64,000 bases of DNA from Paramacrobiotus metropolitanus (lineage: Eukaryota > Tardigrada > Eutardigrada > Parachela > Macrobiotidae). Below the pieces are notes generated by a model. It had not been told where the DNA came from and did no database searches. It saw only the letters and a list, made by a program, of their open reading frames with translations. Positions 4,101 to 25,945 of the stretch are shown in pieces (positions within the stretch are counted from its first letter, which is position 1; each line of letters begins with the position of its first letter). The stretch covers positions 310,001-374,000 of the forward strand of contig NW_026570337.1 of the NCBI RefSeq assembly GCF_019649055.1, given 5' to 3'. Both the position numbers and the translations under genes were made by a program.

Positions 4101-4973
4101 CTTCCAATGGAATTTCCGGATTTATCATGGAATCGTAGGCATATGCGCAACTATAAACGGCGCAGTTATTCGACATAGTTCCTTGAGCAAACAGAGGAAC
4201 CACTTGGACACGCAGTGGATTGGTTCGTCCGCAAAGCGTCCATATTTGAATTTTGATCCAGTCGTTTTGACGCCAACCGAGAGAATCGAACACGAACACG
4301 CACTACGTACCATAGTAACGTCAGTTCTGTTAATTTTATGCACGCAGTTGAGGGAAGTAGCAACATGTTGTTTTCTTTGAACAAGTGTACGACTTACCCC
4401 GTCTTTTTTGTCATACTTGATGGTGACAAAGTGATTACTGCCATTAAACAGTGGTTGAATTAAGACTCGACCGCTATCCAACTGCTTTCTGGCTGTGGCT
4501 ACCACTTCGTAATTCGGCTGGCAACGCAAGATATATTGAGGCATTACGACGGTAACAAATACTGGGTCCGCTGCCGCGTGCTGATTAAGCAGGTGACAAA
4601 ATGCGTTTACAACGCGAACATCAATAAACTTTCCGACACAGTCCAACATTTTTAGATCGAAATTGAACAGCAAGCATTGTCCGATGCTTTTATAACGCCT
4701 GCCCTCTTCCCGCGTCGCGTTGTCTTCGGCCCGCAAGTTAACACTCTGCACATCTTCAGTTTCGTAGACTTCCACTTCTGTTTCCACATGCACTGTTGAT
4801 ATGCCATTTCTATGCACTGTTGATATGCACATTTCTAGCGAATTATGCACATCTTCAGTTTCGTAGACTTCCACTTCTGTTTCCACATGCACTGTTGATA
4901 TGCCATTTCTATGCACTGTTGATATGCACATTTCTAGCGAATCATTGTGGAGCGTAATACAGCCGGATTTCAA
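4101..4973 (-). CDS. Ulp1-like (C48) cysteine protease of the transposon
   Basis: Two exons are supported: down to 4398 with a GTAAGT donor, and 4302-4101 after a TAG acceptor, in matching phase. The fold of SUMO/ubiquitin-like proteases is recognisable: a catalytic-His region (NHFVTIKYD), the Asp block (VFVFDSLGW), the oxyanion Gln (LFAQGTMSN) and the nucleophile (NNCAVYSCAYA). The Trp that usually follows the His is Phe here. The N-terminal part holds a 33-residue in-frame duplication. The start codon and the 3' end are unresolved. In other transposons such genes are passengers, and their substrate is unknown. Confidence 0.65.
4748..4942 (-). repeat. 99-bp in-frame tandem duplication
   Basis: A 99-bp unit occurs twice with a period of exactly 33 codons inside the N-terminal part of the Ulp1-like gene. 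The copies look nearly identical, so the duplication is recent. It adds a second copy of a segment containing EVEVYETEDV. Confidence 0.9.
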
Positions 4974-11002: not shown

Positions 11003-11930
11003 AGTAGTACGTTTGTTTAACTCACGCCAATTCTGCGCATGTGCATTTGCACGGATGCGCAAGTGTGTATGAGCATTTGCACACATGCGCATATGTATAA
11101 GTGCATTTGCAATTGCACACATGCGCACAAGTATACGATACACCTGTGCATGTGCATCTGCACGGATATGTGGATAAATGGAAATAATTTTGTAAATTTG
11201 ATTTGTATGCTGACCACAACACAGTATGTCGTGATTGAATGTACCATGTACCATGGTACATGGCCCAGGTACATGGTACAGGTACCGTTACCATGGTAAC
11301 GCGTACCTGGTGCCAAGTACCAGTCGCATAATAACAGATATGCATTGGCCTATGAAAATCTAGTTGGTAATTACAAACATGTGTGCATTCTATCTGAAAG
11401 TTACGGAAGAAAACTGTTTTCGGCCATTGTATACTATCCAATCTTTTTTTGAACCATTGCAACTGCTACTGATTTGTTTACCGGGTGTTGATATGATATT
11501 GTTGTACTATTCCATGGATTAACCAGGATTGATAGCCAATTACTTTCAAGCTCTAACGGAATAACGGGTAAGGGGGAAAGAAGTAAATGTTTGTTTGGTT
11601 TACTTTCGTTTCACCCTGAATTCCGATCTTGCGTCAGATTTCGTTCTGTTTGTGTGGATATTTAATTGCATTATTTAAAGCTTTATTGCATTTGATTTAC
11701 CAGCTTTACTTAATATATGTCGTCATAAACAACTCCGTTTATCATGGCATCATTTTGTAAATAAAAAAACCACAATATCAAACAATGTTTCGTCGGTACA
11801 TGTGACAAAAGAAATTGCAAACACTACAATTCCAGTTTCTGGATACAAAACGTTTTAATGTGTGAAAACCAGGCTCTGTAAAGTTTGGATTCCAAAACGC
11901 CCAGGGTGCCATTGCTATCAAAGGCCAGCA
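11003..11930 (+). repeat. Polinton left terminal inverted repeat
   Basis: About 928 bp, starting AGTAGTACGTTTG, recur inverted at the right end with only a few differences visible by eye, one being a 6-bp length change in a short repeat. The outer part holds tandem TGCATTTGCAC/ATGCGCA-type units, then a palindrome-rich block. Open frames rich in Cys and His across the outer part are by-products of this repeat and not genes. Confidence 0.95.
11230..11330 (+). promoter_or_regulatory. Palindrome-rich block in the terminal repeat
   Basis: Contains the perfect palindrome GTTACCATGGTAAC (11287-11300), several GGTACATGG-type words and TACCTGGTGCCA (11304-11315). The last motif recurs in the element's internal divergent promoter near 19.58 kb. 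Such blocks could bind an element-encoded protein at an origin or promoter; that is inference. Confidence 0.5.
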
Positions 11931-12157
11931 GTGCTTCCCACTATTTGCAAGTATTTAAGCACCGTAGATCCACCCTTTTTCGTGTCGAAGAACTCCCGAA
12001 ATACGGAATGGTCGTTATTGCGGACATCGGGTACCCTCCACATGGTATTCCGGGATCTGCGGTCTGAACAAAGGACTTAGGGTTACATTTTTTATCGGGC
12101 ATCTCGTTTATCTTTATTGCCTCACCTTTGTCGAAGAGACGGAACGCAGGATGTGAG

Positions 12158-12343
12158 TTATAGCGTCATATTACGTAATGTCTGATTCCAGGAATCACTT
12201 TGTAGGACTTTTCCTATTCCTTCCGTAATGATTATAGCAGCGAATACTATAAAAAATAACACGTACAGAATCACTAACAAAACTTTTTCGCATTTCTTCT
12301 GGACGCCAACAGCGTCCGGAAGCATATGCTGTAGCCCAGCCAT
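12158..12343 (-). CDS. Small single-pass membrane protein candidate (Polinton)
   Basis: A 61-codon frame from an ATG at 12343 has one strong hydrophobic segment (VLLVILYVLFFIVFAAIII). It lies between the left terminal repeat and the ATPase gene on the opposite strand. Small membrane proteins are not a recognised core part of the family, and a frame this short could be chance. Confidence 0.3.
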   Translation of the reverse strand: MAGLQHMLPDAVGVQKKCEKVLLVILYVLFFIVFAAIIITEGIGKVLQSDSWNQTLRNMTL

Positions 12344-12587
12344 GTTATGCACCTTGTGTTGTGTTTGCAGTGCTTAAATAGACTCGTTATTGTTTTTGTG
12401 CAGACATGAACATGAACAGAAGAGCGCTGAAAAGGTGTCACCTTTTCTGCTGGCTGAAGCAAGGAATACCAATCGAGAAACCATGTGCGGAGCGGTGGAT
12501 AGCTTCTAATTTCAACATCAGATTACTTAATTTGCTGAATTCGCCATTTAAGCACGTAGAACAATACTGAAAACATTATTTTCAAAA

Positions 12588-13274
12588 ATGTATAGTACTG
12601 TTAAAGAATATCCGCGCCTCAGTGCGCCCTTTGGGATGTGTGTTTGTGGACCGACCATGTCGGGTAAATCAGAGTTTGTTTTCTCATTAATTGAGCAACG
12701 GAACCGCATGATTGATAAACCACCAACAAAAATTATCTATTGTTACGGTGCTTGGCAAAGTGGATTCGAAAAGCTACTATCTGCAAACCCTTTTATAGAA
12801 TTTATTAAAGGATTGGACGAATTCTTTGCCTGTTCCGAGTCACTAGATGAAAAGGTGCCTACATTAGTTGTTATTGACGACTTGGCGACTGATCTCTGCA
12901 AAGACGTGCGGTGTGCCAATCTTTTTACACGCGGAATCCATCACAAAAATGTTTCAGTTATCGTGCTTCTACAAAATCTATTTAAGCAAGGCAATGTCAT
13001 GCGGGACATTACCCTCAATCTACAGTATCTAGTCCTTTTCAAAAACGTGAGAGATGTAAATCAAATAGCATTATTGGCCAGACAGACCGGACTGAAGCAA
13101 CTGGTTACTGCTTATAGTAAGGTCACTGCACTACCGTACCAACCTTTAATTTTGGACTTGCGACCAACGTGCCCAGAATACTTACGTATTCGCTCCCATA
13201 TCTTTCCCAACGAGCACATGAGGATTTATTTGGATCGAAATTCGTCACAACTGCCAAAATGTCGGAACGCGTAA
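12588..13274 (+). CDS. Polinton packaging ATPase
   Basis: A 228-residue protein with a Walker A motif (GPTMSGKS) near residue 22 and a Walker B (TLVVIDDLA) near residue 90. This is the A32/FtsK-HerA-type genome-packaging ATPase shared by Polintons, virophages and large DNA viruses. Length fits the family. It is the first large gene inside the left terminal repeat, and most other genes follow on the same strand. Confidence 0.9.
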   Translation: MYSTVKEYPRLSAPFGMCVCGPTMSGKSEFVFSLIEQRNRMIDKPPTKIIYCYGAWQSGFEKLLSANPFIEFIKGLDEFFACSESLDEKVPTLVVIDDLATDLCKDVRCANLFTRGIHHKNVSVIVLLQNLFKQGNVMRDITLNLQYLVLFKNVRDVNQIALLARQTGLKQLVTAYSKVTALPYQPLILDLRPTCPEYLRIRSHIFPNEHMRIYLDRNSSQLPKCRNA

Positions 13275-13435
13275 AATCGTTAGCACCCTTTATCATCACC
13301 CTACAGAATTTAAAACCGCGACAACGACGCGTTCTGATGAGTTACATGAGTAAACCGCAGATGAAAGCTTTGGAAGAAATCGCCGTCAACATTGTAAAAA
13401 AATACTGTCGCATTGACACCATCCCAAATGGATAA
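13259..13435 (+). CDS. Small Polinton protein of unknown role (58 aa)
   Basis: Starts at ATG 13259 (MSERVKSLAP) and overlaps the end of the ATPase frame by a few codons, a compact viral-like arrangement. It is helical and basic by inspection (NLKPRQRRVLMSYMSKP). I recognise no domain. Confidence 0.5.
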   Translation: MSERVKSLAPFIITLQNLKPRQRRVLMSYMSKPQMKALEEIAVNIVKKYCRIDTIPNG

Positions 13436-13585
13436 ATGTAAACGCCATCGCAAAGCATTAAAGCTCATTGCACTGCGACGCTATCCTCTCAAACAAAAGC
13501 GAATAATCTTACAACAAGGAGGATTTATTGGGGCTATCTTACCGGTTATTGCTGGGGTCCTAACATCGTTGATTGGAAATGGATG
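13430..13585 (+). CDS. Small basic-hydrophobic protein, minor-capsid-like
   Basis: A roughly 51-residue frame from ATG 13430 starts with a very basic stretch (KCKRHRKALKLIALRRYP) and ends in a glycine-flanked hydrophobic segment (GGFIGAILPVIAGVLTSLI). Short proteins of this kind, resembling adenovirus pX-type components, occur in Polinton-like gene sets. The assignment rests on composition only. Confidence 0.45.
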
Positions 13586-14244
13586 AGTACTATATTGTTC
13601 CTAGACGCATTATGGAAGAGCGCCTGCATGAGAAAATACAAGTTAACAAAGAACCTCCGGAAGCCAGAGCTGTTGTTTCTTTGGACGAACTTGTTGCCAA
13701 AACCTTAAGACGAACCGATATAAACGAGTATGAGAAAGCCGACCTGCTAACAAGCATTTTGGAGCGTTTCTTAGCATTGAAACAAAAAGTCTTACCTGAC
13801 GAAAACCCTGTGCAATTCTCCGATGAAACCGTGTTGCAACCGGCACCATTAGGAGTACAACAAGAGCTGGAAAAGTTTCGCAAACGCAAAAGAACTGACG
13901 AAGATGAAATAGAACAAGTGCCAAAGCAACCGCGCCCACAATTATTTCCATCGACGTTGCCAACCAAAGGGCAAAAAAGGTATCTGGAAGACGATCGAGA
14001 TGGTCCAATAAAACATGGTCGTGTTGCCTTGTTTCCACCAACACTGCCAGCAAAAGGACGAAAGCGTAAAACCGCGGACGATCATCCAAATAGCCGTAAA
14101 CAACGCCGTGTACCCTTGTTTCCATTATCCATTGGAAAAAGGAAAACGGAAAGTGCCAACGAAGATACCGGTCGGAAACTGCGTTCCCGAACTGTTCAAA
14201 GTGGTAGTGGTCAACATAGGATTCAGTGGATAACCTTACCATAA
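13573..14244 (+). CDS. Basic, low-complexity Polinton protein (223 aa)
   Basis: The first ~85 residues look helical. The remainder is Lys/Arg/Pro-rich with three loose repeats around a LFP(S/P)TLP(T/A)KG motif and basic KRK clusters. It may be a DNA-binding or core protein. No known domain is recognised, and the role is inferred only from composition and its place between the small capsid-like gene and the integrase. Confidence 0.55.
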   Translation: MEMDEYYIVPRRIMEERLHEKIQVNKEPPEARAVVSLDELVAKTLRRTDINEYEKADLLTSILERFLALKQKVLPDENPVQFSDETVLQPAPLGVQQELEKFRKRKRTDEDEIEQVPKQPRPQLFPSTLPTKGQKRYLEDDRDGPIKHGRVALFPPTLPAKGRKRKTADDHPNSRKQRRVPLFPLSIGKRKTESANEDTGRKLRSRTVQSGSGQHRIQWITLP

Positions 14245-14319
14245 TGTCCAGCTTTCTTCCTACTGTATTGCGACTGTGTCGGATATTTAAGATCAATTGC
14301 GTATCCAGTTGTTGCAATA

Positions 14320-15372
14320 ATGGAGAAACTGATGAAAAAATATCTGAACCCTCGCGATCCCGGAAGTCTTGGCGGCGTCGACAGGTTCCGAAAAAGTTTA
14401 AAGACCAGAGCCGACAAACGGAAAGCACAGGCGATCTTGCAGGAGATCGATGCCTACACTGTCAACAAAGAATCACGCAAACGCTTCCCGCGCAACCGCA
14501 TAATAACAACTAACCTCCGCCAACAGTATCAAGCGGATCTGGCCGATCTAGCCAAGTATTCGAAGGAAAACGATGGATACAAATATTTGCTGTTTGTTAT
14601 TGATTGTTTTTCCAAGAAACTCAGTATTCAACCTCTGAAAACCAAAACGGGTGCTGATACCAAGGAAGCGCTAACCAATGCGTTCAATGATTTGGGAGAG
14701 CCGGAAAAACTGCAATATGATAAAGGGACTGAGATGTTGAATAGAACGGTGGCCAAGTACTTGAAAGACAAACAAATTCAGTTCTTCACTTCCGAGAACG
14801 AAGACATCAAGTGTTCCATGGCGGAGCGCGTTATTCGAACCATCAAAACGCGGATATTTCGATTGTTTCGGTCCCGCTTATCGACGCGCTATATTGACAA
14901 AATGCAAGACCTGGTGTACTCGTACAACCATTCCAAACACCGTGCGCATGGTATGCGACCCAGTGATGTACGGCAAGACAATTCGTTGGCAGTGTACAAT
15001 GCTTTGTACAAGCACAAAGACGTCAAGAAGCCACGGTACAAAGTCGGTGATGCCGTGCGGATTGCGGTGCATAAAACAAAGGTGGAAAAAGGGTATACTT
15101 ACCGTTTCAAAGAAGAAATCTTCTACATCCATCAGGTGATCCCGCATCGTATTCCGGTCTATCGTTTGAAGGATTACCAAGATGAAGTTATTAAAGGAAC
15201 GTTTTATGAGCATGAACTGTCACCAGTCTCGAATCCACAGCATAAGGAACACGCAATTGATTTTATTGTTAAGCGGCGCGGAAAGAAAGCATTAGTCCGT
15301 TGGTTAGGTTACGGACCCGAACACGATTCTTGGGAACCACTATCATATTTGAAGGAGCGCCTTTCTACATAA
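14320..15372 (+). CDS. Polinton retroviral-type integrase with chromodomain
   Basis: A 350-residue protein. The rve core gives the DDE triad: Asp in QYQADLADL, Asp in LQYDKGTE, Glu in SMAERVIRT. A C-terminal chromodomain follows (IDFIVKRRGKKALVRWLGYG ... DSWEPLSYL), as in most Polinton integrases; chromodomains read methylated histones and can bias targeting. Length is normal and the frame is open. It catalyses insertion of the element and is consistent with the observed 6-bp target duplication. Confidence 0.93.
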   Translation: MEKLMKKYLNPRDPGSLGGVDRFRKSLKTRADKRKAQAILQEIDAYTVNKESRKRFPRNRIITTNLRQQYQADLADLAKYSKENDGYKYLLFVIDCFSKKLSIQPLKTKTGADTKEALTNAFNDLGEPEKLQYDKGTEMLNRTVAKYLKDKQIQFFTSENEDIKCSMAERVIRTIKTRIFRLFRSRLSTRYIDKMQDLVYSYNHSKHRAHGMRPSDVRQDNSLAVYNALYKHKDVKKPRYKVGDAVRIAVHKTKVEKGYTYRFKEEIFYIHQVIPHRIPVYRLKDYQDEVIKGTFYEHELSPVSNPQHKEHAIDFIVKRRGKKALVRWLGYGPEHDSWEPLSYLKERLST

Positions 15373-16310
15373 CCTTACCCAGTGATGTCGCCACAGAAGC
15401 GGCCAACACGCCCTCCAACTGGACTACCAAACTGAAGCATCCCATTACCTTGAAGGGCAAATGGGAAATGGCCCTGGTGGAACTGCAGTATTTAAATTCT
15501 TTCTATACTCTACCTACCGAGCAAAAAATTCAACTGGATATTGTCCGCGAATTTCGGGTTAAAAAAGAAGAAGACTTTATTGATAGCGTCAATTACGTTG
15601 TGCACCAAGAAATTTTGACGGTTCCTCCCGGAAATTATAAGAATGCCGAGCTTTTACTGCAAACCGTCAACAACTTAGCTCCTACAATCGGACCGTACAT
15701 GGTGGATGACGCTCTACATCAGGATAAAAGTGCTTTGCCGGATAACAAAGCTTTCAACTTGCAATTTTTTAACCTCAACAAACCACCGAGTGAAACTGCT
15801 TATTGGCAACGATCGAGTGTCAGTTACGTTTCCCCCCTGGATCCGTTACCTTGCAAAAAATACTCGGGTTTGAACAAGCGGAATTTAAACCAGATGTACC
15901 CGCAGAAACTCACTCCAATGCACTGGGACCCTTTCCGTTTGTTACCAAAACCAGTAGCATCAAGTACTTGTCATTCCTCAGTAAAGCTCCTCCACCTAAA
16001 CTGACCACCTTCTTGTCGGAACGACCGGTGAACACCATGCTGGGGAACCAAAGCCTGTTTCTGTACAGTGATGTTGCAGACTACAGCCTGATTGGTGATA
16101 CTGCCGCGCAGTTTTGCGCGCTGTACCTATTAGAGGGAGGTCAACCAAATTGTGGAAGCACGTTTCGACATTCCCCACTATGTTCCCGTATTACGCCAAC
16201 ATTTCGAAACTATTCATTTAACTATTGCCAACGACCTGGGTGACGACGCTAAATTTCAGACGGGAAAATCACTAGTAAAATTACATTTTCGACCACAACG
16301 CTTATACTGA
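15340..16310 (+). pseudogene. Polinton penton-like minor capsid gene region (broken)
   Basis: The start (FYITLPSDVATEAANTPSNW, then KGKWEMALVELQYLNSFY) matches a conserved structural protein of Polintons and adintoviruses, commonly assigned as the penton or minor capsid component. It lies directly after the integrase. The region appears broken in this copy. Confidence 0.6.
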
Positions 16311-16362
16311 AAATGCCCTCGTCGCCTATGTCCCAGACCCGCGACGCTACGAAAACGTTTTC

Positions 16363-16716
16363 GTGAGCCAAACGGGAGGAAGTGCTCTCATTCGCTATCG
16401 TGGCACACTACAAAATGGATCCGGGTTCCCACAAATTTTGAAGAATTTATTTGCCAAAATTACCAACTTTGCCAAACCGATACTGCGTAGAGCAGCGCCG
16501 CATGCTAAAGCTGCTTTAGAAGCCGCCACCCCTCACTTGCAAGATGCGGCAACCGGGGTTATTAAAGAAGCAGGAGCGGCGATTGGTAAACGCCTAGTTT
16601 CGCAAGAAGGAGAAGGCGTTCGGAAGAAACAACGTGTTAAACGTAAAGTACATCGCATTAAACGTATTCCGCCAACCAGCATTCCGGACTTTTCTAAACA
16701 ATGGCACTGCTCATGA
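16363..16716 (+). CDS. Polinton pVI-like minor capsid protein
   Basis: About 117 residues, with a GSGFPQILKNLFAKI-type amphipathic start, an Ala-rich helical middle and a strongly basic C terminus (KKQRVKRKVHRIKRI). This matches the small proteins resembling adenovirus protein VI that sit beside the major capsid gene in Polinton-like elements. The call rests on composition, size and position. Confidence 0.55.
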   Translation: MSQTGGSALIRYRGTLQNGSGFPQILKNLFAKITNFAKPILRRAAPHAKAALEAATPHLQDAATGVIKEAGAAIGKRLVSQEGEGVRKKQRVKRKVHRIKRIPPTSIPDFSKQWHCS

Positions 16717-18037
16717 TGGAACATTCCGAACCGGCCATGCAGCTGGAAAATCAGCTGTTTGCCTTGCCGGCTACATTGACCGACCGCTGGCGTACCGAAC
16801 ACGAGAAACTGAACCCTACAACTATTTTGACCGACAATGGATCCGCTGGTGACATTAATTTCTTTATACCACCTAGTACGGCTGGTCTGCTCAGTTTGGC
16901 AGATATGATATTGGAGTTGGAAGTGGGCATCAAAGTGCGTAAAACTACCGGTGACTGGGAATTGGTAACCGCGGATGATGGGGTGGCACCGGTCAATAAT
17001 TTCTTGCACTCGCTCTTCTCATCCTGTCATGTAACGGTAGCCAATCGACTGATCTCGGATGCCGCCACGTTCTATCCATACCGAGCATACTTTGAGTCAT
17101 TGCTATCGCATAGCAAAGAGGCTCAAAGTAGCCAGTTGACTTCGGCTGCATTCTATTTGGACACGCCCGCCAAACATAACGATGAGACGTCTAATCAAGG
17201 AGAAAAGAGCCGTAAGGCTTTATTTCAAACCGGACAATATGTTCAACTTTCTGGAAGACTATTTTCGGACTTGTTTGACCAAAGCAAACCACTGTGCACA
17301 GGGGTTCCTGTGAACATCCGTCTGGTAGTCAGCCGCCCTGAATTTGCCCTGCGTGTGTGGGATAAAGATGCCACGAAAACGTTTAAGCCCTTCATTCGCA
17401 ATGCTCGGTTGTCTATCCGACGCTACATTCCCTCACCGGATTTTCTGACAGCTGTTGCTGGTGAATTGTTAAAGAAAACCGTCAAATATCATGTTGAGCG
17501 GATAGTTATGCGCGTGTCGGACATTCCTCAAAAGACGCAAAGCACCGTGGTCAGCAATCTACAGATTGGGCAAATACCCAAAGTCGTGTTCGTTGGATTT
17601 GTCGATAGCGAAGATTTTCACGGATCCATCAAAAAGAATCCGTTTAACTTTCAACATTTCAACATTACACAACTTAGTGTGGAAGTGGATGGTCAGAGCT
17701 TCCTAGCAAACCCTATATAAGTGATTTTGAACACAACTTATCCTTGGAGTGCTACGATGGTTTGCTCGATACTCTGGGATACCGACCGAGTTTGCAAGGC
17801 GGACTACCGTTCAACCGCACCGAATATAATCAAGGATATACCGTATTTGGTTTTGACCTTACACCAGGACATACTGGCCGGGGACCTTTGACCTTGATAA
17901 AACAAGGAAATCTGAGTGTATCAGTTTCCTTTGCTAAACCATTGACGACAACAATCATGATGGTGTGCATGCTGATTTATGACAGCATCATCGAAATTAA
18001 TCAACATCGCCAGTTGATTGCGGATTTTTCAACATGA
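16701..18037 (+). pseudogene. Polinton major capsid protein gene region (broken)
   Basis: The protein sequence is that of the double-jelly-roll major capsid protein. The early part has LNPTTILTDNGSAGDINFFI, and the C-terminal end carries the characteristic block GYTVFGFDLTPG followed by QGNLSVSVSFAKPL. It sits between the pVI-like gene and the protease, the usual order. The gene region is near full length but appears broken in this copy. Confidence 0.8.
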
Positions 18038-18546
18038 ACACGGAGCAAATTCACCACTGTCTGCAGGGAAATCCTGTTACCACCCAGCTGTTCCGCGGTG
18101 TGTTTGCCAGTGACCAAGTTCCGCCATGTTTAGCCCCGTACCCTGGAGCATGTGTAGTTAACACAGACCCCTCTGACCAAAATGGCGCACACTGGATTGC
18201 TTTGCTACAAACCCAAGCGGGAATCTTGGAAGTGTTTGATTCGTATGGTAAAGCGTTGGAAACGTATTCTCAGCACTTCTCTATGCTTGCTCAGAATAAT
18301 ACTATTGTCTGTCAAGACGAACAGTTTCAGTCCGAATATAGTACCGTGTGTGGTCAATATTGCTTATTTTTTGTTTTGAGACGCGCTAGCGGCGAATCTT
18401 TCACTAATATTGTACATTTATTTACCGATAATCGAACAAGCAACGACAAGATGGTGTGTCAGTATGTAAATTCTTTTTTTGATATCAACACAGCACTAGT
18501 TGACGGATCTTTTCTCCGTCAGATATGTCAACGATTAATGAAATGA
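18034..18546 (+). CDS. Polinton adenain-type cysteine protease
   Basis: A 170-residue protein of the C5/Ulp1-like fold used for capsid maturation. Visible catalytic residues are His in GAHWIALL, Asp in LEVFDSYG, Gln in DEQFQSE and Cys in VCGQYCLFF. Length is close to adenain. It immediately follows the capsid gene. Confidence 0.9.
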   Translation: MNTEQIHHCLQGNPVTTQLFRGVFASDQVPPCLAPYPGACVVNTDPSDQNGAHWIALLQTQAGILEVFDSYGKALETYSQHFSMLAQNNTIVCQDEQFQSEYSTVCGQYCLFFVLRRASGESFTNIVHLFTDNRTSNDKMVCQYVNSFFDINTALVDGSFLRQICQRLMK

Positions 18547-18640
18547 ACCATGCAAAAACGATCTGTTCAAAGAAATAAATAGAACAAATGCCGTGTTATA
18601 CTGTAGTGACAACCATAAAATGCATTACAGAAATCCTAAG

Positions 18641-19480
18641 TTAAACTTGGTTCAGAGAGCAGTTTACTTGCATACGGATTTGATTTTCATGTGTATCCAA
18701 ATACTTCACCACATCCAAACTTAAGGCTTGCTTAAAGCTCAGTTCTTCAAAACCAAACAAAATGCCATGCACAAAACGAGCATCCAACAGACGTTGCACA
18801 GCATCTTTCCATTCCGTATCCGTTAACACGTCCCGGAAATCAGGGCATCTTTCATGAACTAGTTTCACCATAGCATCAATAATAGCGTCGCACAACTTCT
18901 CATGACAAAGACCTTTTTTATCAGCATCCACATCCTCAACGATTTCGTCCACACTGACAATATGTTTGAAGAGAGTGAAATCCCGTATGAGTTCTTTCAA
19001 CGCTTCGTAGCACTTCTCGTTCAATGAAATCCCGTTTCTCGTGGGCATCAAATCACCTTCTTGAGACCGCTGATAGCGGCGAAAGCTGGCCACGTTAGGA
19101 CGGCTCCAGCTGAAGTACACCCCCCGGTCCAGTAAGAATAAAGGAGGTAAATTTCCATTGGAATGATCCAGATCGGCTTTTCCCGTCAGCAGTAACGATA
19201 CCAAGCGCATGAATCCTCTTTTGGTAAGGCTTATCGTTTTCGCCCACGTCTGCTTCCATTTCCCGGGCGGCCCTTCCTTCCATTCACCAATAAAAATTCG
19301 AGTTTCTTCCCACTGATAATCGACATGCACAAATTTCTCGTAGCCCAGACGATACACAGGACGACCGCTCTCTGTGAAGGCTAAACGAGGATGAGTCTTC
19401 TCGACACTGCACTTAGTCTTGTTGACTAGTGGCATTTTAGGCTTCGAGTCTGAACGGCGGCGTTTTAGAGATGGTTCCAT
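18641..19480 (-). CDS. Polinton protein of unknown function, minus strand (279 aa)
   Basis: Starts at an ATG at 19480 (MEPSLKRRRSDSKPK), giving a basic, nuclear-localisation-like N terminus, then a mixed alpha/beta domain (YQWEETRIFIGEWKEGP ... LTKRGFMRLVSLLL) and a helical C-terminal half. It is the only long minus-strand gene in the element. It is divergently transcribed from the next gene across a palindrome-containing promoter of about 176 bp. I do not recognise the family. Confidence 0.65.
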   Translation of the reverse strand: MEPSLKRRRSDSKPKMPLVNKTKCSVEKTHPRLAFTESGRPVYRLGYEKFVHVDYQWEETRIFIGEWKEGPPGKWKQTWAKTISLTKRGFMRLVSLLLTGKADLDHSNGNLPPLFLLDRGVYFSWSRPNVASFRRYQRSQEGDLMPTRNGISLNEKCYEALKELIRDFTLFKHIVSVDEIVEDVDADKKGLCHEKLCDAIIDAMVKLVHERCPDFRDVLTDTEWKDAVQRLLDARFVHGILFGFEELSFKQALSLDVVKYLDTHENQIRMQVNCSLNQV

Positions 19481-19564
19481 TTTTGTCAGAGCTGAACTCA
19501 AATGAAGTGTATGTTGAGCGCACGCAAGTTGTAAAACAAATGTTTGAAGGTCAACTGTGGTACA

Positions 19565-19591
19565 TGGTGCCAGGTAAAGTACCTGGCACCA
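19565..19591. promoter_or_regulatory. Perfect 12-bp palindrome in the Polinton divergent promoter
   Basis: TGGTGCCAGGTA and its exact inverse TACCTGGCACCA are separated by 3 bp, in the gap between two divergent genes. Variants of this motif occur in the terminal repeats. Probably a binding site for a dimeric regulator or replication protein; the protein is unknown. Confidence 0.65.
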
Positions 19592-19656
19592 GGTACCATA
19601 AACCAACGCTGTTGCCAAGTGATAAACGAGTTGTGTATTTCAGTCTAGTCTTGACC

Positions 19657-20160
19657 ATGGCTCTGCCATGTGTTTTAGATGCTGATTGGTTTATAATTGA
19701 AAAGGTACCATATATCAAACAGCTGGCCTTCTCGTGCCCAGAAAAACATGACAGTGGGCAGTACACCTTCAGCTTACCACGATCAGCCGGTAAACACGCT
19801 CGCGAGTTGCAGAAACAGGCCAAGCATTCCCATGGACTTCTCTGGAGCACCTTTGGTGATTATCGACACAATCAAGTGACGGTTGCCTTGGAAGACATGT
19901 TTAACCGTATTGGCCGTCCTAGTAAGCTAACTTTCTATGCCAAGGGTTTGGAGAAGTGCCGTTTACTGGAGCGTTATGTGCCCCAAGTGGTCAATCTTGA
20001 GGAACTAGGTTGCCCCGTCTATCACCGTCTAACAGATGTGCCCCAAACAACACTGCGCAAAGCTATTCGGTTCGGTTTGTGGTTCTACTGCCATGCCAAA
20101 CATCATGAATGTCGTTGCCGTTGCGGATTTAAACACTATCCTCAATCTGAAGGAGATTGA
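19657..20160 (+). CDS. Polinton protein of unknown function, plus strand (167 aa)
   Basis: I choose the ATG at 19657 (MALPCVLDADWFIIE) because the frame upstream is the palindromic promoter. Notable residues are the YAKGLEKCRLLERYV block and a Cys/His-rich end (YCHAKHHECRCRCG). The arrangement loosely recalls nuclease-like proteins seen in invertebrate mobile elements, but I cannot name the family. It overlaps the start of the TBP-like gene. Confidence 0.6.
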   Translation: MALPCVLDADWFIIEKVPYIKQLAFSCPEKHDSGQYTFSLPRSAGKHARELQKQAKHSHGLLWSTFGDYRHNQVTVALEDMFNRIGRPSKLTFYAKGLEKCRLLERYVPQVVNLEELGCPVYHRLTDVPQTTLRKAIRFGLWFYCHAKHHECRCRCGFKHYPQSEGD

Positions 20161-20608
20161 AAAGAAAGTACCGATGGCGCAGTATATTCCCCGCAAGTTT
20201 TCCGGCTTACTCATTCGTATTCTGTCTCCCTATAAAGCACATTGCCAACTTTATTCCAACGGAAAAATCACGGTCAATGGCGCTCGTTCGGAATCTGCTG
20301 CCAGAGAATTGGTCGACAAGTTTACCAGCATTCTTCAATCAATTGGGTACCGTTGTATCGTTTCGGGATTTCGAATTGTTAACATTGTTGTCAGTCATGA
20401 TTTTGATAAACGTATACATATTGAGAAATTTAGTCAACATTACAAGTTGGAATATACTCCTGAATTGTTTAGTGGTTTACGTATAAAATTGCCTTGGTGT
20501 ACTGCTGTGCTCTTTCCATCGGGAAAGTGCAACTTTTTGGGATTGAAAGAAATGCATAACATACAAATATCTGTAGACTTTGTCGGTAGAATGATTGCAA
20601 TGCAATAA
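20093..20608 (+). CDS. TATA-binding-protein-like protein (Polinton-encoded)
   Basis: A 171-residue protein (or 167 from ATG 20105) with both repeats of the TBP saddle. Repeat 1 has LNLKEIEKK, YIPRKFSGLLIRI, YSNGKITVNGARSE and an ARELVDKFTSILQSIG helix. Repeat 2 has FRIVNIVVSHDF, YTPELFSGLRIKL and LFPSGKCNFLGLKE. Three of the four positions of the DNA-intercalating Phe pairs keep Phe and one is Tyr. The size is that of the TBP core. It is the last gene before the right terminal repeat and overlaps its upstream neighbour. TBP nucleates RNA polymerase initiation, so a role in element transcription is the natural inference. Confidence 0.85.
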   Translation: MPNIMNVVAVADLNTILNLKEIEKKVPMAQYIPRKFSGLLIRILSPYKAHCQLYSNGKITVNGARSESAARELVDKFTSILQSIGYRCIVSGFRIVNIVVSHDFDKRIHIEKFSQHYKLEYTPELFSGLRIKLPWCTAVLFPSGKCNFLGLKEMHNIQISVDFVGRMIAMQ

Positions 20609-20628
20609 ATTTATTCAATTGTGTATCA

Positions 20629-21559
20629 TGCTGGCCTTTGATAGCAATGGCACCCTGGGCGTTTTGGAATCCAAACTTTACAGAGCCTGGTTTTCACACA
20701 TTAAAACGTTTTGTATCCAGAAACTGGAATTGTAGCGTTTGCAATTTCTTTTGTCACATGTACCGACGAAACATTGTTTGATATTGTGGTTTTTATTTAC
20801 AAAATGATGCCATGATAAACGGAGTTGTTTATGACGACATATATTAAGTAAAGCTGGTAAATCAAATGCAATAAAGCTTTAAATAATGCAATTAAATATC
20901 CACACAAACAGAACGAAATCTGACGCAAGATCGGAATTCTGGGTGAAACGAAAGTAAACCAAACAAACATTTACTTCTTTCCCCTTACCCGTTATTCCGT
21001 CAGAGCTTGAAAGTAATTGGCTATCAATCCTGGTTAATCCATGGAATAGTACAACAATATCATATCAACACCCGGTAAACAAATCAGTAGCAGTTGCAAT
21101 GGTTCAAAAAAAGATTGGATAGTATACAATGGCCGAAAACAGTTTTCTTCCGTAACTTTCAGATAGAATGCACACATGTTTGTAATTACCAACTAGATTT
21201 TCATAGGCCAATGCATATCTGTTATTATGCGACTGGTACTTGGCACCAGGTACGCGTTACCATGGTAACGGTACCTGTACCATGTACCTGGGCCATGTAC
21301 CATGGTACATGGTACATTCAATCACGACATACTGTGTTGTGGTCAGCATACAAATCAAATTTACAAAATTATTTCCATTTATCCACATATCCGTGCAGAT
21401 GCACATGCACAGGTGTATCGTATACTTGTGCGCATGTGTGCAATTGCAAATGCACTTATACATATGCGCATGTGTGCAAATGCTCATACACACTTGCGCA
21501 TCCGTGCAAATGCAAATGCACATGCGCAGAATTGGCGTGAGTTAAACAAACGTACTACT
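20629..21559 (-). repeat. Polinton right terminal inverted repeat
   Basis: About 931 bp, the near-identical inverse of 11003-11930, ending ...CGTACTACT at 21559 just before the ATCAAG duplication. Few mismatches are seen by eye. Confidence 0.95.
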
Positions 21560-22762: not shown

Positions 22763-23420
22763 GGTCGTTTAAGTGAAACACTATAACAAGTGAATGACGA
22801 TGGTCGTTTAAATGAAACACCTGAAATAACATTTTCCACAAACCGATGTTCTTTCGGATTTTTTACTCATCCGCTTAAACGGAATTTAGCCTTTACAAAG
22901 TATTCGAAATTTTTAAAAAATCTTGAACCGTTTTCTTGCAAACGCGTCGTTAAAGAGATCGTGACGAAAGCGCTTTAGCCACGCAACGATTGCCACTGCA
23001 CTACGCTCAAGTATTTGCAATCACCCCCCCCACACATGTGCGGCTGTTAAGTCAGTTCAGGTAAATTTATGGTCAACCGAATTTTTTTCTTCATTTCGTC
23101 GAAGTTGGTGTCTTTAGACTGATTTCATTTTGATCTAAATACACTTCTTACACGGCGAAGGTGCAGCCGCCTATGTATGGCGGTGACTGCAAATATTTGA
23201 GCGTAGTGCAGTGGGTAAAGCGCTTTCGTCACGATCTCTTTACGACGCATTTGCAAGAAAACGGTACATACAAGTTTTTTTTAAAATTTCAAGTACAGAA
23301 CTCTGTAAAGGCTGTAATCTGTTTAATCGGATGAGGAAAAATTCCGAAAGAAAATCGGTTTGTGGGAAATATTATTTTTGGTGTTTCACTTAAACGACCA
23401 TCGCCCATTCACTTGTCATA
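22763..23420. mobile_element. Foldback element, copy 2
   Basis: Arms of roughly 270 bp are inverted around a short centre near 23.06-23.13 kb. The ends carry GGTCGTTTAAGTGAAACAC-type motifs, repeated twice at the left end. Both arms contain ACCGTTTTCTTGCAAA..., GAGATCGTGACGAAAGCGCTTT and CACTGCACTACGCTCAA. It is more intact than copy 1. No coding capacity. Confidence 0.75.
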
Positions 23421-23484
23421 GGGCAGTACGGCTATCTAAACCCGGCACTCTACGTCATCGTACGCATTTCGTACTTACTACGAG

Positions 23485-23720
23485 TATTTATTTATTTATT
23501 TATTATTAGTGTTATTATTATTAGTTATTATTAGTTATTATCAGTTATTATCAGTTATTATTAGTTATTATTAGTTATTATTAGTTATTATTAGTTATTA
23601 TTAGTTATTATTAGTTATTATTAGTTATTATTAGTTATTATTAGTTATTATTAGTTATTATTAGTTATTATTAGTTATTATTAGTTATTATTAGTTATTA
23701 TTAGTTATTATTAGTTATTA
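23485..23720. repeat. 10-bp-unit minisatellite, left block
   Basis: More than 20 near-perfect copies of TTAGTTATTA, preceded by an ATTT-rich run. The same unit forms a longer block at 25463-25945. Confidence 0.95.
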
Positions 23721-23727
23721 CATGCAA

Positions 23728-23790
23728 GCCTCGTGAGAGCGAGGCCCCGTAATTCACCTTCGGTGAATACCGGTGTCTGTAATAGGTATT
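23728..23790. other. Cluster of small stem-loops
   Basis: GCCTCG and CGAGGC (23728-23745) and ATTCAC and GTGAAT (23752-23768) form two successive 6-bp hairpins, followed by a weaker TACC/GGTA pairing. They lie right beside the minisatellite. They may be part of a structured RNA or a mobile-element end; no family is recognised. Confidence 0.3.
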
Positions 23791-24155
23791 GGACCGTTCG
23801 CATTGAGCCCATTAGAGTCTGTTTTTCGTAAAGCGTAATGAATTTGTTCCATTTAAATGAATTTTTCCGCGTGAATTGAGCGTGATTTCGCCTTGTTTAT
23901 TCGATTCGGTTAACGCAAGTATAACCGGCTGGACCAATTTCAGAATATTCGTTAAAATATAAAACATTTCCCGGGTTAGAGTAATTTCCTGGACTGTTGA
24001 CAATAACAAATAAAATCTAATTAAAATCCAAGTAAATTAAACGGAAGAAAAGGTTAACAGATCGAAAATGTGAGGAAGCGACAAACATCAGAACAGACTT
24101 TAATGCAATAGGCAAAACACAACACCAGGTTCAAAAGTAAAACAAAGGCACCGAA

Positions 24156-25426
24156 CTAGGAATTCAGTTCTCCAAGCTCCTCGTCAATCACAAGTGCAAA
24201 CGGGTCGATTTCCGCTGGAATAACAATCCCTTGGCTTCGGCAGATGTTTCTCGGAGGATAGGGTTCCACGTCCGGTCTTAATGGGATGAATGATTTGTAG
24301 TGGTTGAAGTTCGTATAAATGATGCATATTGGCGGTGTTCCCAGCGGGATCCCATGGATATCCTGATATTGCCAATGGAGACCGCTTCCCTCCCCGTTGG
24401 TGATCTTTTCCCGCGCCTAGATTACAGATAAAGTTTCAATTCGTTGTTCTGAAATAACTACATTTAAAAAGCGTTGGAAATTTATAATACCTCATGAGGA
24501 CTCCGTACACGGTTGCAACCTAGCCGAGCGTACTCTTCCGATGTAAACTGGACATAATTGTATATCGGGCGTCGAATAGCGGCAGAGATTCCCTGCATGG
24601 TCATCGCGCCTCCCCATTCTTCGAGTCCGCCTTCGAGCTCTCTCTGATATGCGGCCGTTGTTCGAATGAGAGATTTGAAATCTTCGGCGTCATGGAGGGA
24701 ATTATTCCAGTCGCGAAATACATCCACATTTTCCAAAAACTCCCAGATTGCAGCAAGTCGCAATTGCAAATAGTTCTCCTGTGTGCCGGTCAAAGACTGC
24801 GATATAGCCATATATGCGCAGTGACCTTTACCATCCACATTGACAACCGCATAATCATTGAGGAATCCAGACCAGAACCGGCAAGCTTCTTTGACGCCTG
24901 CTCTGCTAGGTTGGTAAACCTGAGGCGGACTAGTCCTAAGCCACTGCAGTATCCGGTCAATATCTGGCTTGTGGAGTGCTAATATCTGTAGATCAGAAAA
25001 TTCTAACTTGGATTGACAAAATATATCATAGTGGACATTATACCTGCTTCACTGCATCAATATAAATCGCCTCTGGTAGCACCAGATCAACTGTTCGAAT
25101 TTCCCTCAGGATGGTTTCCGCAATCCTTCTATCCGACTGAGCCGCAGTACCAGACACCGGGTGAAGACGCGTCTTGGGCGGCTTAAACGGTCTCGAGTCT
25201 ACTGCCGACGTAGAGGGAAGACACTGTCCAATTGGTTGGTGAACTGCAGCAGGGACTTTTGGAAAACCACGTAGGGGTTGCTTGAACGGTAAGCTGACCC
25301 TTGATGAGGTAAACGGATTGCGAGCTTTCTTTCCGCAGGCGCTTTCCTGTAAAGTCGTCGTCGTTTTCCGTTTTATACCAGTGAGCGCGGGAATTTGACT
25401 TGGACGCAATGCGTCATCCGGACTGC
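24156..25426 (-). CDS. OTU-domain cysteine protease (deubiquitinase-like), 5' end not found
   Basis: Exons 25426-25044, 24985-24491 and 24416-24156 have splice signals and consistent phase, giving about 379 codons to a TAG. The first exon is a Pro/Lys-rich linker. The OTU core follows: DGKGHCAYMAIS with the catalytic Asp and Cys, an EEWGGAMTMQGIS block that fits the EWG region, and YTNFNHYKSFIPL with the catalytic His in the last exon. The first visible exon begins at an acceptor, so an upstream exon with the start codon must lie beyond the adjacent minisatellite. OTU proteases remove ubiquitin. It is either a host gene or cargo of a mobile element, given its setting. Confidence 0.7.
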
Positions 25427-25462
25427 CTGCTATGAAACCATGTTAAGACGAGAAGATTTGAG

Positions 25463-25945
25463 TGTTATTATTATTAGTTATTATTAGTTATTATCAGTTA
25501 TTATTAGTTATTATTAGTTATTATTAGTTATTATTAGTTATTATTAGTTATTATTAGTTATTATTAGTTATTATTAGTTATTATTAGTTATTATTAGTTA
25601 TTATTAGTTATTATTAGTTATTATTAGTTATTATCAGTTATTATTAGTTATTATTAGTTGGCCATCAGTTATTATTAGTTATTATTAGTTATTATTAGTT
25701 ATTATTAGTTATTATTAGTTATTATTAGTTATTATTAGTTATTAGTTATTATTAGTTATTATTATATAGTTATTGTTAGTTATTATTAGTTATTACTAGT
25801 TATTATTATTAGTTATTATTAGTTATTATTAGTTATTATTAGTTATTATTAGTTATTATTAGTTATTAGTTATTATTATTATTAGCAGTTATTATTAGTT
25901 ATTATTAGTGTTATTAGTGTCTATTATTAGTAGTAGTGTTATTAA
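25463..25945. repeat. 10-bp-unit minisatellite, right block
   Basis: About 45 copies of TTAGTTATTA with occasional variants and phase slips. Same unit and same orientation as 23485-23720, on the other side of the OTU gene. Confidence 0.95.

Follow-up and report, generated by a model that had tools for sequence, protein, structure and literature searches.

The TATA-binding protein (TBP) helps RNA polymerase to locate the starts of genes. TBP homologues that act at late promoters are known from herpesviruses, where KSHV ORF24 is joined by EBV BcRF1 and HCMV UL87. The KSHV late system is described as relying on a viral TBP complex, with ORF24, that reads the sequence TATTWAARV about 30 bp before the start, the T at position 4 being important (PMC6541308). 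The TBP domain of ORF24 is reported to span residues 417-594 of about 750, with Pol II-binding and further DNA-binding parts elsewhere in the protein; it has N at the positions of yeast V122 and T124 (the latter being human T218), T at V213 and S at T215, and is described as being without acidic TFIIB-contacting residues such as yeast E188 (PMC12529657). According to the same account, Asn at the yeast T124 position is found in 100% of beta- and gammaherpesviruses (PMC12529657).

Giant viruses and mirusviruses also carry TBP genes. The gene is reported from 59% of mirusvirus genomes (PMC10132985), and in CpV-BQ1 and a megavirus it is reported together with TFIIB (PMC12085832, PMC11464507). TATA-binding proteins are also described as sporadic in elements of putative mirusvirus origin (PMC10675990). 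No report of a Polinton TBP was found in the open-licence PMC literature on Polinton/Maverick elements, adintoviruses and tardigrades. Polintons are regarded as virus-like, yet to our knowledge there is no answer to how they time the expression of their capsid genes.

The window (the whole stretch of DNA that was analysed, 64,000 nucleotides) comes from the tardigrade Paramacrobiotus metropolitanus and holds a Polinton of 10,557 bp (10.6 kb), whose features are collected in Table 1. The hallmarks found are long terminal inverted repeats (TIRs, 98.7% identical to each other), a 6-bp target duplication (ATCAAG), an rve-type integrase, an A32-type ATPase and a C5 protease; the placement of a TBP frame within a Polinton, made earlier from the letters and open frames, agrees with them. 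The ATPase, integrase, protease, PC4-like gene, gene U and TBP are open frames in this copy, while the penton candidate and capsid genes are broken. The name penton/minor capsid is our assumption. A sequence search places the capsid candidate in the same family as the F54H12.2-like proteins of other animals; a capsid profile gave no match among PDB sequences. Neither an RNA polymerase gene nor a TFIIB gene was seen among the open reading frames of the element.

Table 1. Features of the Polinton in the window and the basis on which each was named (positions are those of the window).
Feature	Position	Strand	Remarks
Polinton element	11003..21559	.	ATCAAG 6-bp direct repeat on both sides; basis: TIRs, target duplication, genes
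Left TIR	11003..11930	+	928 bp; 922/934 aligned columns identical
TATT-type box CATTTAAG	12545..12552	+	43 nt upstream of ATPase ATG
A32-type packaging ATPase	12588..13274	+	Pox_A32 1.2e-5, 25.3 bits (cut-off 22.8)
Basic ORF	13579..14244	+	without Pfam match
Integrase, chromodomain-like end	14320..15372	+	rve 6.7e-12, above cut-off; chromodomain 4.3e-5, below cut-off
Penton/minor capsid candidate (presumed)	15468..16243	+	two frames in window copy; without Pfam match
Small open frame between penton candidate and major capsid gene	16279..16716	+	
Major capsid protein candidate, F54H12.2-like family	16701..18037	+	two frames in window copy
Adenovirus-type C5 protease	18034..18546	+	Peptidase_C5 1.8e-4, 21.7 bits (cut-off 21.3)
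PC4-like protein	18641..19480	-	PC4 1e-4, 22.1 bits, below cut-off 25
Gene U	19657..20160	+	3' end overlaps TBP start by 68 nt
Element TBP, 171 aa	20093..20608	+	Pfam, PDB search, alignment, tree
Right TIR	20629..21559	-	931 bp; begins 20 nt past the end of the TBP stop codon

Several repeats were seen in the same DNA. A palindrome, GGTGCCAGGTA...TACCTGGCACC, lies between the PC4-like gene and gene U (19559-19597), and GGTACC-rich sequence occurs both there and in the terminal repeats. Arrays of a 10-bp tandem repeat lie beside the element (23398-25640; 63 in-register copies, 30 of them among those listed), and a 99-bp tandem duplication, 99% identical, lies at 4747-4944 within a minus-strand open frame.

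The TBP frame matches the Pfam TBP profile in two stretches (1.1e-32), and a phmmer search of the PDB with the protein matched 35 TBP sequences (best 2.2e-21). An earlier ATG is present in the open frame at 20036; the Met at the 20093 position is the one kept by most of the relatives compared. Two direct TBP repeats were found in the protein, as in its relatives of the other two element classes described below, and the SGK-type turns are SNGK and PSGK. Four Phe residues of TBP intercalate in DNA, and in the window protein the positions of human F193, F284 and F301 are F, while that of F210 is Y. The first-pass annotation had proposed just such a homologue, with both core repeats, aligned SGK-type turns and three of the four intercalating Phe, and all of these were recovered. 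In its two repeats and most core contacts the protein resembles the TBP of the host, from which it differs in overall sequence (27% identity) and in changes at human T218 and T309 and, mostly, V216 and V307. A chance open reading frame was rejected on the basis of the Pfam match and of purifying selection.

The gene is not confined to this copy. The genome searched comprises 169.8 Mb in 533 contigs. In the Pfam TBP search the best 150 of 493 candidates were scored, and all 150 listed places, with each repeat counted separately and the host TBP included, were above the cut-off. Combined searches gave at least 227 merged TBP loci, with decayed fragments included and the host TBP excluded, of which 177 lie no more than 12 kb from a listed ATPase, capsid, integrase or PolB match. 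In a first set, 122 of 140 TBP loci were within 12 kb of core genes, a distance that covers approximately 3.3% of the genome. Conversely, among the matches listed, a TBP lies no farther than 12 kb from 135 of 149 ATPase loci, 106 of 115 integrase loci, 100 of 113 capsid loci and 60 of 79 PolB loci. The locus totals, for TBP and core genes alike, are lower bounds, and the unpartnered loci (50 TBP, 14 ATPase, 9 integrase, 13 capsid and 19 PolB) may be fragments, loci with unlisted partners or true absences. The best explanation is that the TBP gene is near-universal among the Polintons detected in Paramacrobiotus metropolitanus.

These Polintons fall into three classes. In class A (at least 60 loci), which includes the window element, TBP and the ATPase are on the same strand, with TBP 4-9 kb downstream. 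In class B (at least 31 loci) the two genes are head-to-head, and in class C (at least 43 loci) TBP shares the strand of the ATPase and closely precedes it. A further 89 of the 227 TBP loci have no listed ATPase nearby, and four fit no class. Many class C elements had at one stage been taken as TBP-less; searches with class C proteins revealed a divergent TBP beside them, and that view was dropped.

The PolB of a relative, all four quarters of which match in 18 of the 19 fetched class A loci, gave no match to the window element or to its sister L015 on C16. We therefore interpret the window copy as a Polinton derivative from which PolB has been lost, and not as a complete Polinton. Neither the missing PolB nor the broken capsid and penton frames had been mentioned in the first-pass annotation. 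In the class A relatives PolB lies beyond TBP, on the strand opposite to it; five class A loci (C196, C10, C26, C131 and C232) have a PolB match at the opposite end, ahead of the ATPase. This arrangement bears on whether the protein acts in transcription at all. In the window the TBP gene adjoins the terminal repeat and a PC4-like gene is nearby, as might be expected of an architectural protein that bends DNA at the terminal repeats during replication, packaging or integration. With PolB standing beyond TBP in 18 of 19 relatives, and the position of TBP differing among the classes, such a role is very improbable.

Gene U adjoins TBP in 19 of 19 fetched class A loci and has no Pfam match above the cut-off; in the window copy the two overlap in different reading frames. 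The open frame containing TBP extends back into the U region in L020 (407 aa) and L023 (403 aa). The PC4-like gene of the relative L024 (L024:3027-3824) matches the Pfam PC4 profile above the cut-off (2.6e-6, 27.3 bits), and the scores in the window copy, L018 and L030 are below it. PC4-like proteins are possible single-strand binders. In class A Polintons this gene would appear to encode a second protein of transcription or single-strand-binding type.

Beyond the genome, a TBP profile search of proteins gave 81 matches, two of them named Paramacrobiotus metropolitanus, one from a plant and one from an archaeon. One protein named from the tardigrade, P0045, starts with the TBP of L049, as judged by eye. 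Apart from the named ones, the close matches are metagenomic proteins without an organism name. Three of the TBPs (P0027, P0047 and P0002) and three capsid proteins (P0099, P0101 and P0102) are read as coming from common contigs (lengths 20036, 21688 and 27637, with the same source tags). Scans of viral_contigs found no relative. In its integrase, ATPase, C5 protease and capsid family, and in the PolB of its relatives, the element resembles Polintons/Mavericks known from other animals. The best 120 of 639 matches to the capsid family (best 7999 candidates scored) include proteins from insects, sea urchins, a snail and the tardigrade Hypsibius. No TBP named from these hosts of the capsid family is among the 81 profile matches, a difference limited by the fact that protein databases may miss element genes.

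The ancestry of the gene was addressed with a tree of 57 rows, in which TBPs of herpesviruses, giant viruses and mirusviruses and the TLF/TRF proteins were left out. The 43 element and metagenomic rows (25 from the genome and 18 metagenomic) form one group (95/81), while the host TBP groups with human TBP (100/93) and with that of Encephalitozoon (98/91). In a second tree, with eight long or odd rows removed (the class C row L052 among them), the split between element and cellular rows is 100/98. A single clade of element and host TBPs is disfavoured (AU p 0.036). Class A forms one group in both trees, albeit weakly (87/82 and 48/41). Metagenomic TBPs nest among the element rows of the genome, and a clade of the latter without the former is likewise disfavoured (AU p 0.0018). 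Of 176 gene pairs within 60-98.5% DNA identity, 44 had a dS between 0 and 1.5 and were usable; their median dN/dS is 0.14 (range 0.06-0.69), which indicates purifying selection. The three highest values (0.59-0.69) belong to very recent pairs with a dS below 0.04.

Neither outcome that would have told against the first-pass annotation was observed: the profile match is strong, and the gene is no recent host copy limited to one element. These results leave next to no probability for a recent capture of the host TBP by one element, as a copy without function. The genome that the two genes share was the one point found in its favour, and it is set against 27% identity to the host TBP, a separate group in the tree, the dN/dS of 0.14, the nesting of metagenomic members, the many loci and the presence of TBP beside most core genes. 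The best explanation is that the element TBP is an old TBP paralogue that is no longer host-like and whose DNA-contacting surface has changed.

The changes at this surface were counted in the 43 element and metagenomic rows, in human numbering, and compared with the host, human and four archaeal rows. In TBP, two Thr residues contact the base pairs in the middle of the TATA box. At one of them, T218, all 43 rows have N; at the other, T309, 42 have L and one has V. The V216 position is T in 38 rows and the V307 position N in 39. The host, human and archaeal rows have T, T, V and V at these four positions. Other contacts have been kept: all 43 rows have F at F193, F284 and F301 and N at N253, the F210 position is Y in 39 and F in four, and at the N163 position 36 rows have N, two have H and five have a gap (N in 36 of the 38 with a letter). 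Thus, in the pairs of Asn and Thr that cellular TBPs present to DNA, the Asn are mostly kept and both Thr are replaced.

The Asn at the yeast T124 position and the kept Asn and Phe contacts are shared with the herpesvirus late TBPs. The N common to the element TBP and ORF24 is to be regarded as a parallel in sequence, and not as proof of kinship. In yeast, the TBP mutants T124N, V213R and T215R are reported to abolish DNA binding (PMC2265533), so that other changes in the element TBP would have to compensate for the one at T124.

The surface that faces TFIIB is less uniform. Both E282 (yeast E188) and E280 are TFIIB-contact positions. E282 is E in 40 of the 43 rows, the window protein included, which distinguishes them from ORF24, and E280 is E in only 19; given this difference, contact with TFIIB is possible for the element TBP. 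A protein with E282 mostly kept, and encoded in all three element classes of an element-rich genome, could also act on the host, by occupying TFIIB, TFIIA or host promoters and thereby repressing the host or rival elements. We consider this quite improbable, since a conserved box inside the element, before the capsid cluster, offers a simpler target.

In 23 of 23 class A copies this box, of the form (T/C)ATT(T/A)AAG, lies at -36 to -81, upstream of the ATPase with which the capsid cluster begins. It is found at -41 to -81 in 19 of the 19 regions with a start located by tblastn (21 regions given), at -42 in two others, where the start was taken from a genome match, and at -36 in a further two. 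The expectation from Markov-resampled class A regions is a mean of 0.34, with a maximum of 3 in 500. An unbiased search of 16 non-redundant class A ATPase upstream regions out of 21 gave TATTTAAG as the top 8-mer, present within one mismatch in 16 of 16, with its one-base shift ATTTAAGC equal; in 30 Markov-resampled sets the best 8-mer reached at most 10 of 16 regions. The box may be common to related sequences by descent. However, apart from the box the regions can hardly be aligned (median identity 0.61, versus 0.59 when shuffled), which argues that it has been kept by selection. The canonical TATAWAR was found in none of 20 class A ATPase upstream regions, one region being truncated.

Two sets of further matches were discarded: TATTTAAG before the integrase is explained by coding (RIFKI), and the TATTAAAG matches before and inside the capsid gene are, by eye, in coding sequence. 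In L082, L083 and L086 the box, again by eye, spans the stop codon of the preceding frame. Also by eye, several copies among L070-L089 have a RING-like CPxCR...KLFF stretch at the end of the frame that precedes the ATPase.

The other class A genes present a different picture. No common upstream box clearly above the resampled sets was found for PolB (11 non-redundant regions), the PC4-like gene (6) or U (10). Some PolB starts are unsure, since 5 of 15 PolB upstream regions look coding. Single YATTWAA matches occur before U in L021 and before PolB in L024, some upstream regions of U, PC4 and PolB contain TATAWA, and the close copies L030 and L031 have TATAAATAG before U and TATAAAAAG before PC4.

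Nor was the box recovered from the other classes. In class B it was not found facing the ATPase in the four regions scanned; at the class B locus L112, TATTTAAGG was seen by eye facing U. In class C, (T/C)ATT(T/A)AAG is present in none of 12 regions, and the unbiased test gave no significant motif (top 8-mer in 5 of 7 regions, versus 4-6 when resampled); 7 of the 12 have a CATTAAG- or TATTTAG-like stretch. The TBPs of both classes carry the same residue changes as those of class A, although the box is unsupported there.

This distribution is relevant to whether the element TBP is specific at all. It might stand in for the host TBP quite generally, with wide specificity, and serve every gene of the element whenever host TFIID is in short supply; the class A box would then be a TATA variant used by any TBP. 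The TATAWA before some U, PC4 and PolB genes, the presence of TBP in classes where no TATT box was found and the E282 that is mostly kept would all fit. Such breadth is harder to reconcile with the replacement of the two DNA-interface Thr (each in 43 of 43 rows, one of them by Leu in 42) and with the lack of TATAWAR in the 20 ATPase upstream regions, and we regard it as rather unlikely. The TATT box itself might serve host TFIID.

We lean slightly towards a specific role, in which the element TBP would direct host RNA polymerase II to late promoters. Firstly, host Pol II and host factors would transcribe the regulatory and replication genes, namely those for the PC4-like protein, U with TBP, and PolB. 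Secondly, the element TBP would bind the TATT-type box before the cluster of ATPase, integrase, penton, capsid and protease genes. Thirdly, it would recruit host TFIIB and Pol II to the cluster promoter. The result would be late expression of a cluster that host TBP alone would serve poorly. Host Pol II would still be needed, as no RNA polymerase gene was seen among the frames of the window element. The cell-independent control that the first-pass annotation had also entertained finds no support in these results. Its other suggestion, that the element may bring its own promoter factor for late-type control, is indirectly supported by the fixed interface changes and the class A box; in classes B and C the box is absent or unsupported.

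The proposed scheme resembles the herpesvirus late system in having a TBP-like domain and a TATT-type box, the latter a putative target known from sequence in class A, and would resemble it in the use of host Pol II. The element protein, at 171 residues, is no more than a TBP and, unlike KSHV ORF24, lacks the Pol II-binding and C-terminal DNA-binding domains. It shares the carriage of a TBP gene with giant viruses and mirusviruses. Their genomes are much larger, in contrast to the 10.6-kb transposon of the window, among whose frames neither an RNA polymerase nor a TFIIB gene was seen.

More speculatively, and with the balance tilted somewhat against it, animal Polintons could carry a dedicated late-transcription switch in the form of a TATT-specific TBP. 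Its Asn and its type of box would match those of the herpesvirus late TBPs, either through convergence or through descent from an ancient viral TBP common to both, and the capsid genes of a 10-15 kb transposon would then be under virus-style temporal control.

With a TBP in the majority of the Polintons of one animal genome, altered at its DNA contacts, and with a candidate box at hand, the timing of capsid expression becomes directly testable. If it does read TATT boxes, this 171-residue protein would be a minimal analogue of the herpesvirus late-promoter machinery. This suggests that these Polintons may run a private gene switch, as some herpesviruses do.
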